From the NCBI RefSeq assembly GCF_009676705.1, contig NZ_CP046046.1:868001-932000 (forward strand): a DNA stretch of 64,000 bases, given 5' to 3'. Each line of letters opens with the position of its first letter. Within the stretch, counting starts at the first letter, position 1. Under the pieces are notes generated by a model. It was not told the DNA's origin and made no database searches. It saw only the letters and a list, made by a program, of their open reading frames with translations. Source of the DNA: Spiribacter sp. 2438. GTDB taxonomy: Bacteria; Pseudomonadota; Gammaproteobacteria; Nitrococcales; Nitrococcaceae. Position numbers and translations under genes: made by a program. This document shows positions 1,857 to 7,710 of the stretch, piece after piece.

Positions 1857-1891
1857 TTATCCACAAAACCTGTGGATAAGTCTGTGGATGA
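1857..1891. other. Cluster of three DnaA-box-like sites in a 348-bp intergenic gap
   Basis: TTATCCACA at 1857-1865 and its reverse complement TGTGGATAA at 1871-1879 are exact E. coli-type DnaA boxes. TGTGGATGA at 1883-1891 differs by one base. An AT-rich stretch follows (about 1936-1990), rare in this GC-rich window. The gap 1823-2170 also holds a palindrome (1976-1991) and a TATAAG box (2000-2005), and no convincing ORF. No dnaA, dnaN, gyrB, mnmG or parAB is nearby, so it may be a secondary DnaA-binding locus, a DnaA-regulated promoter of dusB, or an origin in an unusual context. Confidence 0.6.
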
Positions 1892-1975
1892 AAAAAACTT
1901 CAGCGGTCGGGAACCCTTTGGTACCGGGGGTTGTCCTCAAATTGTTGATTATTTAACCAATGCCATAAAACGTTT

Positions 1976-1991
1976 GTAAACAGTAGTTTAC
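1976..1991. repeat. Inverted repeat GTAAAC-4-GTTTAC upstream of the dehydrogenase gene
   Basis: Perfect 6-bp arms with a 4-nt AGTA spacer, about 180 bp upstream of the gene at 2171, followed 9 bp later by TATAAG. The geometry suits a dimeric regulator operator or part of an AT-rich unwinding region next to the DnaA boxes. It is too weak for a terminator. Confidence 0.4.
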
Positions 1992-2170: not shown

Positions 2171-3130
2171 ATGGCTGACGTCGTAATGCTGGATCGCGGC
2201 ACACTGGATCTTGGGGACCTGGATCTGAGTGCACTGGAGGAGGGGAGTGCCGAGTTCATCAGCTACGAGCGAAGCTCCCGCGAAACAGTGATTGAGCGGG
2301 CGAAGGATGCCCGGATCATCATAACGAACAAGGTGGTGATAGACGCGGAGGTCATGGCGGCCTGCCCCCGGCTTGCGCTGATTTGCGTGGTTGCCACCGG
2401 CGTCAACAACATCGACACCGACTCGGCGGCGGCCCGGGGCGTTCAGGTGGTCAACTGTCGTGGCTATGGCACCGACTCCGTGGCTCAGCACGCCATAGGA
2501 TTCATGCTAGCGCTCAGCACCGGCCTGGTGTCCTACGTCAACGCTGTCCGGAGCGGACGCTGGGAGCAGGCCCCGGACTTCTGTTTTCTCGACTTTCCGA
2601 TCAGGGAGCTGGCAAGCATGAAGCTGCTGGTCGTGGGCTACGGAGAACTCGGTCGGGCAGTGGCTCGTCTGGCGGAAGCCCATGGAATGGAGATACTGAT
2701 TGCGGAACGCCCAGGTGTCGAGTCGCCGCGAGAAGGGCGGGTCGCCTTCGATGAGGCTGTCGCCGAGGCGGATGTCATCACGCTGCACTGTCCCCTGAAT
2801 GACCAGACCCGTCACCTCATCGATGAGGCGGTGTTGCTTCGGATGAAGCCCACCGCCTTTGTCATCAACACCGCCCGGGGCGGGATCGTTGATGAACAGG
2901 CGCTGGCGGATGCACTGCGTCGCGGTGAAATTGGCGGTGCTGGCATGGATGTGCTGACCGAAGAGCCCCCGCGCCAGGGCAATCCGTTGCTGCAACCGGA
3001 CATCCCCAATCTGCTGGTGACCCCACATTCCGCCTGGGGGAGCCGCCGGGCCCGCCAGCGAATCGTCGAACAAACCGTAGAGAATATTAACGCCTGGGAG
3101 CAGGGCGACCCTGTGCGAATCGTGGTGTAA
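2171..3130 (+). CDS. D-2-hydroxyacid dehydrogenase (hydroxypyruvate/glyoxylate reductase-like)
   Basis: Cytosolic NAD(P)H-dependent reductase of 2-keto acids, 319 aa. An N-terminal catalytic half contains TNKVVID and VATGVNNIDTD. The Rossmann motif GYGELG is at residues 156-161. The catalytic triad sits in NTARGG (Arg), TEEPP (Glu) and TPHSAWGS (His). The TNK segment resembles the glycerate dehydrogenase/hydroxypyruvate reductase (HprA) subgroup, so reduction of hydroxypyruvate or glyoxylate is likely, but the substrate is not proven. A GGGGGAG ribosome-binding site precedes the ATG. The SDR gene follows 9 bp downstream and is probably co-transcribed. Confidence 0.88.
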   Translation: MADVVMLDRGTLDLGDLDLSALEEGSAEFISYERSSRETVIERAKDARIIITNKVVIDAEVMAACPRLALICVVATGVNNIDTDSAAARGVQVVNCRGYGTDSVAQHAIGFMLALSTGLVSYVNAVRSGRWEQAPDFCFLDFPIRELASMKLLVVGYGELGRAVARLAEAHGMEILIAERPGVESPREGRVAFDEAVAEADVITLHCPLNDQTRHLIDEAVLLRMKPTAFVINTARGGIVDEQALADALRRGEIGGAGMDVLTEEPPRQGNPLLQPDIPNLLVTPHSAWGSRRARQRIVEQTVENINAWEQGDPVRIVV

Positions 3131-3880: not shown

Positions 3881-3974
3881 TACCTGCCATGGCAGTCCTC
3901 TGAGTTCGTCCCAGTCTGCTCATTCAATTATTTAACATAATATATCTTATACGCAGTAGACCATGGGAAAAGAA

Positions 3975-7091: not shown

Positions 7092-7710
7092 TGAAGTGGC
7101 GCTCCAGGACCGCTTCGATTCCAGCGGTGACCGTTGCCAGGTCAGCGCTGGCGTCAATGCGCCGGATACGCTGGGGCGCCTCGGCGGTCAACTGCGCGTA
7201 CCCCTGACGCACGGCCTCGAAAAAGACCGCTTTCTCGGACTCGAACCGATCCGGGCGACTGCGTCCGTTGGCGCGTCTCAGTCCCAGCTCCACCGGCACA
7301 TCCAGCCACAGGGTCAGATCCGGTTCCAGCCCGGGATGAGTCCACTGCGCGAGGACTTTGATCTGATCCATCCCGAGTTGCCGCCCTGCCCCCTGATAAG
7401 CGCTGCTCGCGTCACTGAACCGGTCGCAAACGACCCATTGTCCCGTCGCCAGGGCCGGTTCGATCAGCGTGCGGAGATGCTCTGCCCTCGCGGCGAACAT
7501 CAGCAGTGCCTCGGTCTCCGGGGCCATGCCGCCCTGCCGATGGGCTAGCAAAAGGCTCCGGATCTCTTCCCCGAGAGGCGTTCCGCCGGGCTCCCGGGTA
7601 ACGACGACGTCATGGCCCTTGCCCTTCAGCCATTGCCGGATGCGGGCGATCGCGGTGGATTTGCCCGCACCTTCAATGCCCTCAACGGTGATGAAGCCTC
7701 CGGATTTCAT
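7084..7710 (-). CDS. tmk: Thymidylate kinase
   Basis: Phosphorylates dTMP to dTDP with ATP, 208 aa. The P-loop is GIEGAGKST (residues 10-18), the DRF motif is VVCDRFSDASSAYQG, and the lid region contains RRANGRSRPDRFESE, an arginine-rich E. coli-type (type II) lid. It starts inside the mltG stop (ATGA overlap) and is coupled to holB downstream. This is the standard pabC-mltG-tmk-holB order of gammaproteobacteria. Confidence 0.95.
   Translation of the reverse strand: MKSGGFITVEGIEGAGKSTAIARIRQWLKGKGHDVVVTREPGGTPLGEEIRSLLLAHRQGGMAPETEALLMFAARAEHLRTLIEPALATGQWVVCDRFSDASSAYQGAGRQLGMDQIKVLAQWTHPGLEPDLTLWLDVPVELGLRRANGRSRPDRFESEKAVFFEAVRQGYAQLTAEAPQRIRRIDASADLATVTAGIEAVLERHFND

Follow-up and report, generated by a model that had tools for sequence, protein, structure and literature searches.

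An intergenic cluster of DnaA boxes in the chromosome of Spiribacter sp. 2438, a small, salt-loving bacterium, is probably a DnaA-reactivating site of the DARS type, situated close to the terminus of replication; judging from its sequence and its comparison with relatives, we give this reading a probability of roughly three in four. DARS sites turn ADP-DnaA back into ATP-DnaA. The window, by which we mean the whole stretch of 64,000 nucleotides that was analysed, spans C1:868001-932000; the genome is a single contig, 1,900,931 bp long, that starts at dnaA. The locus extends over 235 bp (about 1857-2090), and the features that define it and its surroundings are the following, in window positions:

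854 to 1822, - strand: dusB (TIGR00737 above cut-off), a gene absent in some relatives
1857 to 1865, + strand: DnaA box I, TTATCCACA, exact; TTNTCCACA is constant in 13/13 Spiribacter copies of the locus
1871 to 1879, - strand: DnaA box II, TTATCCACA, exact; invariant in 13/13 Spiribacter copies
1883 to 1891, - strand: DnaA box III, TCATCCACA, one mismatch; TGTGGA is invariant in 13/13 Spiribacter copies
1937 to 1959, + strand: accessory module cAAATTG...TTnaCCA, a conserved sequence
1976 to 1991: palindrome GTAAACagtaGTTTAC, containing the IHF-like site
1978 to 1990, + strand: IHF-like site AAACAGTAGTTTA, one mismatch to WATCARNNNNTTR, called by consensus match
2082 to 2090, - strand: fourth DnaA box, TTATGCACA, absent from the initial annotation
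2171 to 3130, + strand: 2-hydroxyacid dehydrogenase gene, adjoining the core in 13/13 Spiribacter loci
3930 to 3957, - strand: dif site ACTGCGTATAAGATATATTATGTTAAAT, near the skew maximum and absent from the initial annotation

The initial annotation had described two exact DnaA boxes in opposite orientation and a one-mismatch third within 35 bp, and all three lie where it placed them. Box II stands head to head with box I across a gap of 5 bp, and box III has the orientation of box II, from which 3 bp separate it. The cluster is intergenic, between the two genes named by the annotation, dusB on one side and the hydroxyacid dehydrogenase gene on the other. The AT-rich DNA reported after the boxes is likewise present (30% GC over 1932-1991), and the palindrome within it is, by its match to the consensus, a putative IHF site. 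DnaA boxes with at most one mismatch number 15 in the window, against 5.05 +/- 2.33 in shuffled sequence, and 0/100 shuffles reach 15. The 1.90 Mb genome contains the exact box TTATCCACA seven times, the locus accounting for two, and its reversed pattern four times; on an independent-base estimate that allows the third box one mismatch, the chance of such a triple in the genome is 1.8e-10.

The box offsets, 0 (+), 14 (-) and 26 (-), are identical in the window and in DARS1 and DARS2 of E. coli K-12, whose bioD-uvrB (DARS1) and rppH-mutH (DARS2) regions were scanned for box triples. One report describes both E. coli sites as having a three-box core of equal spacing with box I opposed to boxes II and III (PMC5742627), and the Spiribacter locus has this core of boxes I-III, with box I opposed and at the same spacing, in an intergenic location. 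With DARS2 (rppH/ygdT-mutH, 2.97 Mb) it shares core order, orientation and spacing, the intergenic position, extra DnaA boxes in the flank, and the side of the core on which IHF-like sites lie, at +93 and +109 in DARS2 and at +121 here. It differs in lying near dif, whereas DARS2 is mid-arm, in having core boxes nearer the consensus, and in a flank with one DnaA box at +225, the accessory module and no convincing Fis site. DARS1 (bioD-uvrB, 0.81 Mb) has the same core geometry and, by eye, a GCGG-N10-AATTG in common in the flank, at a nearly equal distance from box III, but it is mid-arm and has no IHF-like match (at most one mismatch) within 320 bp. In E. coli the core layout recurs in degenerate form, as TTATCCCAG-5-TGTGGATAA-3-GGTGTAAGA, at a distance of 316 bp from the core of DARS2 (L129, 1952-1986), with a perfect IHF consensus at +119.

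The layout is widespread. Searching with the pattern TTNTCCACN6TGTGGATAAN3TGTGGA, we find it at up to three mismatches in 40/40 genomes (sp. 2438 and 39 relatives) and at up to two mismatches in 80 of the 97 genomes of a gammaproteobacterial sample, every one of which bears a family label of its own; the reversed pattern, used as control, has zero matches in both the 40-genome set and the 97-genome class sample. Conservation of DARS-like sequences in many proteobacterial species is also stated in the literature (PMC4245941, PMC8682772, PMC10380432). Multiple DARS-like cores at up to three mismatches are seen in genus g12 of family f5, with 12 in G038:C1, 8 in G028:C1 and 10 in G034; several of these are near-identical and clustered, for instance at 2.14-2.29 Mb in G038.

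Among 14 Spiribacter genomes, the window locus (copy A) is present in 13 and a second core (copy B) in 12, with both in 11. The initial annotation held that a canonical oriC elsewhere together with poor conservation in close relatives would speak against it, and the boxes are well kept: mean column identity among the A copies is 0.92-0.95 over 1857-1886 and 0.77 at the fourth box, with 0.38-0.48 over 2037-2066. G003 shows copy B only; its apparent lack of copy A comes from a contig that breaks off within the dehydrogenase gene, short of site A. G007 (74% complete) and G011 (99% complete) have copy A only. In sp. 2438 (G000) the core of copy B is at G000:C1:319085-319119 (L189, 1001-1035), 0.168 of the genome, or about one sixth, from dnaA, and lies between convergent zapE and histone-deacetylase-like genes (gene calls checked in G000 and G001). 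Expressed as a fraction of the main contig from dnaA, in the six genomes with a large main contig and leaving out the further contigs of G002 and G008, A lies at 0.458-0.496 and B at 0.151-0.186. A mid-arm location, typical of the sites in E. coli relatives without being definitional, is thus found for B and not for A.

The flanking sites keep nearly fixed distances from box I. The fourth box is TTATGCACA at +225 to +229 in 11/13 A copies and TTGTACACA at +227 in 2/13, while in copy B a DnaA box with at most one mismatch is found at +193 or +194 in 12/12. An IHF-like site (at most one mismatch) lies at +121 to +123 in 12/13 A copies, G004 being without it, and at +120 in 12/12 B copies; single-base shuffles, run for this place, give an expectation of 0.0045 per copy. 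By consensus matching the A site is perfect in three copies only (G005, G006 and G012). Copy B has a second IHF-like site at +148 in 12/12, ten of them perfect; in the sp. 2438 copy of B the IHF consensus stands at +148 and the DnaA box at +193. In the A copies of three family members outside the genus (G015, G017 and G018), the IHF-like site is seen in one and a later DnaA box in two, at +204 and +207. The accessory module recurs in A, in B and in other relatives, about 80 bp from box I. In sp. 2438 alone, its - strand matches the IHF consensus perfectly, as AATCAACAATTTG at 1938-1950; as an IHF site this candidate was set aside, its perfect match recurring in no other genus copy, in favour of the shared site at +121 to +123. 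Matches to the Fis consensus (at most one mismatch) have no shared place in the A copies beyond 5/13 at +216, and one at +86 in 10/12 B copies. The exact and conserved core geometry, together with accessory sites at near-fixed distances, argues for the DARS-type reading.

The position of the locus in the chromosome is unusual for such a site in E. coli relatives. GC skew, sampled in 60 stretches, has positive values between dnaA and about 0.88 Mb, with two exceptions, and negative values beyond that point, again with two exceptions; over 800-940 kb its cumulative maximum falls at 875,176 (window position 7176). The motif GGGNAGGG occurs 10 times on the + and 4 times on the - strand up to 859,980, and once and 11 times, respectively, from 875,384 on. 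The sequence at 3930-3957, 2.07 kb from the boxes, we take to be dif, called with three mismatches to a gammaproteobacterial consensus. One study describes dif sites as near the skew maximum, intergenic and AT-rich, with a well conserved XerD half (PMC2731167). The skew maximum, the switch in GGGNAGGG bias and dif 2.07 kb away together place the boxes near the terminus. At the other end, in the stretches around dnaA, cumulative skew has a shallow minimum at about C1:2139, and dnaA is followed by what we take, from reading of the translations, to be dnaN, recF and gyrB. The dnaA-dnaN gap (G000:C1:1336-1550), the likely oriC, contains one exact DnaA box and zero one-mismatch boxes.

Copy A and dif share a contig in 12 of the 14 Spiribacter genomes and are 2.0-8.4 kb apart in 12/12 (1,984-2,701 bp in 11 genomes and 8,369 bp in one). 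For G004 a separation of A from dif was considered and rejected, the contig ending inside the dehydrogenase gene. In the family set of 23 genomes, nine of them outside Spiribacter, the linkage is also present in G017 (9.1 kb) and G018 (3.0 kb), and in G015 and G016 core A is beside dusB and the dehydrogenase gene with dif on another contig. The five genomes of genus g2 that were searched have no copy A; a weak core in one of them, G019, lies 76 kb away from dif. In another family, the core of G031 is 10.8 kb from dif. Among the cores listed for the class sample, 14 genomes besides sp. 2438 have core and dif on the same contig, one at 11.4 kb (G116, a two-mismatch core) and 13 at more than 100 kb, measured along the contig. 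Among the cores listed, then, the linkage looks rare outside the order of Spiribacter, and synteny inherited from an ancestor could explain it.

A rhomboid gene lies on the other side of core A, with or without dusB between, in 12/13 loci, the contig of G007 ending there. dusB is found in 6/14 Spiribacter genomes. At the site itself, leaving G003 and G007 out of the count, it is missing from G001, G002, G005, G006, G012 and G013, in which core A is kept beside the rhomboid gene, the gap between core and rhomboid match being 5-18 bases when the stop codon is counted. Between the dehydrogenase gene and dif there is an SDR gene wherever the stretch reaches; in G002 an additional 6.4 kb separates it from the dehydrogenase gene. 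Beyond dif, a TraB-type gene is present in G003, G004, G005, G006, G011 and the window, and was not seen within 1.5 kb in G001, G008 and G012. In sp. 2438 dusB lies close to dif and is not next to the fis homologue (G000:C1:1713854-1714096), while in E. coli dusB and fis form a pair; in G017, G024, G030 and G031, too, dusB and dif are no more than about 9-20 kb apart.

The initial annotation left open whether the boxes titrate DnaA, reactivate it or mark a moved origin; the exact and conserved DARS geometry favours reactivation, and the last proposal is not supported. The locus does share DnaA boxes, an AT-rich neighbour and an IHF-like site with oriC, and the single exact box in the dnaA-dnaN gap might also be taken as a hint that the origin has moved, that the chromosome has a second one, or that the origin of a plasmid or phage has been integrated. 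However, the locus has no array of boxes and lies at the end of the chromosome opposite dnaA. The skew minimum that the annotation proposed to look for is not at the boxes but around dnaA, the boxes being near the maximum, at the change in GGGNAGGG bias and close to dif; a moved origin was rejected on these grounds. The five neighbours scanned include no replication gene, and a phage origin was rejected, a search confined to phages returning no match to the intergenic DNA. An origin of any of these kinds is therefore extremely improbable. A promoter at which DnaA represses or activates dusB, the dehydrogenase gene or both is unlikely, if easier to entertain: in the window, 35 bp separate box I from the start of dusB downstream of it, cores are upstream of dusB also in G015, G016, G017 and G031, and the constant presence of the dehydrogenase gene beside A in the genus (13/13 loci) makes a promoter role possible. 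A promoter would not need the DARS-exact geometry, though, and none is expected between the convergent genes around copy B; with the core also kept in the six genus genomes lacking dusB beside the rhomboid gene, a dusB promoter is insufficient as the sole role.

These same two observations, a core kept without dusB and a copy between convergent genes, favour the DARS-type reading. A DnaA-titrating cluster without reactivation, either datA-like or a simple sink, would account for the crowding of four DnaA boxes into 235 bp together with an IHF-like site, and datA, compared here by description only, has DnaA boxes and an IHF-like site too (PMC5742627). It is characterised by boxes 2, 3 and 7, its IHF site lying between the first two of these. 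It is near oriC in E. coli (PMC10380432), unlike the Spiribacter locus. Titration alone leaves the fixed geometry unexplained, in which head-to-head boxes I and II and box III stand at the exact spacing common to DARS1, DARS2 and most of the class sample; the boxes are also few, and one would look for a sink in early-replicating DNA, not at the terminus. We regard simple titration as quite improbable.

The trans-acting factors of a DARS site appear to be available. IHF alpha and beta are encoded, above NCBIfam cut-offs, with a third, HU-like protein below them, and a Fis homologue is present in 24/24 genomes searched (sp. 2438 included), away from dusB in the latter. DnaA is 68% identical to E. 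coli DnaA; R227, D269, R285, L290 and R334 are kept, and E21, H136 and V211 differ. The presence of both IHF subunits and of a Fis homologue, and the retention of R227, D269, R285 and L290, add to the case for a DARS-type site. In E. coli, according to three papers, ADP-DnaA placed head to head on boxes I and II releases its ADP, and DARS2 is driven by IHF and Fis (PMC4245941, PMC8682772, PMC10380432). Transposing this to Spiribacter, ADP-DnaA molecules would face each other on boxes I and II while a third occupied box III, and IHF, perhaps with another factor at the accessory module, would bend the flank toward the core. ADP would then be released, apo-DnaA would depart and take up ATP, and ATP-DnaA would rise for the next initiation. 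DnaA and IHF binding, ADP release and an effect on initiation at this locus are what we infer from the features described.

Several points count against the DARS-type reading. In most A copies the IHF-like site departs from the consensus, and in G004 and in 2 of the 3 family copies examined it is absent; the A copies share no Fis site, G007 and G011 show only A, and genus g2 shows no A. E. coli DARS2, moreover, is less effective near terC: when it was moved there, initiation became asynchronous and origins fewer, with some function retained, and DARS1 showed little position preference (PMC5010248). The result for DARS2 also counts against a further proposal, which we offer tentatively, that one of the two Spiribacter DARS sites is tied to dif so that recharging of DnaA is coupled to completion of the chromosome. 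Being tied to dif, copy A would be among the last loci to be duplicated. Among the papers listed by searches of an open-access library, no title or abstract beginning mentions a DARS beside dif, DnaA boxes by dusB or DnaA regulation in Spiribacter; Fujimitsu 2009, the founding DARS paper, may list such sites.

If the coupling were real, the next initiation would be licensed from the terminus instead of from a locus part-way along an arm, and Spiribacter would show in nature an arrangement that, engineered in E. coli, weakens DARS2. The placement of DARS sites is thought to matter for the timing of initiation, and a DARS-type core kept 2-8 kb from dif, even where dusB is missing, may provide a natural test of completion-timed DnaA reactivation. 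The I-5-II-3-III pattern would serve as an easy signature for finding such sites in Gammaproteobacteria.
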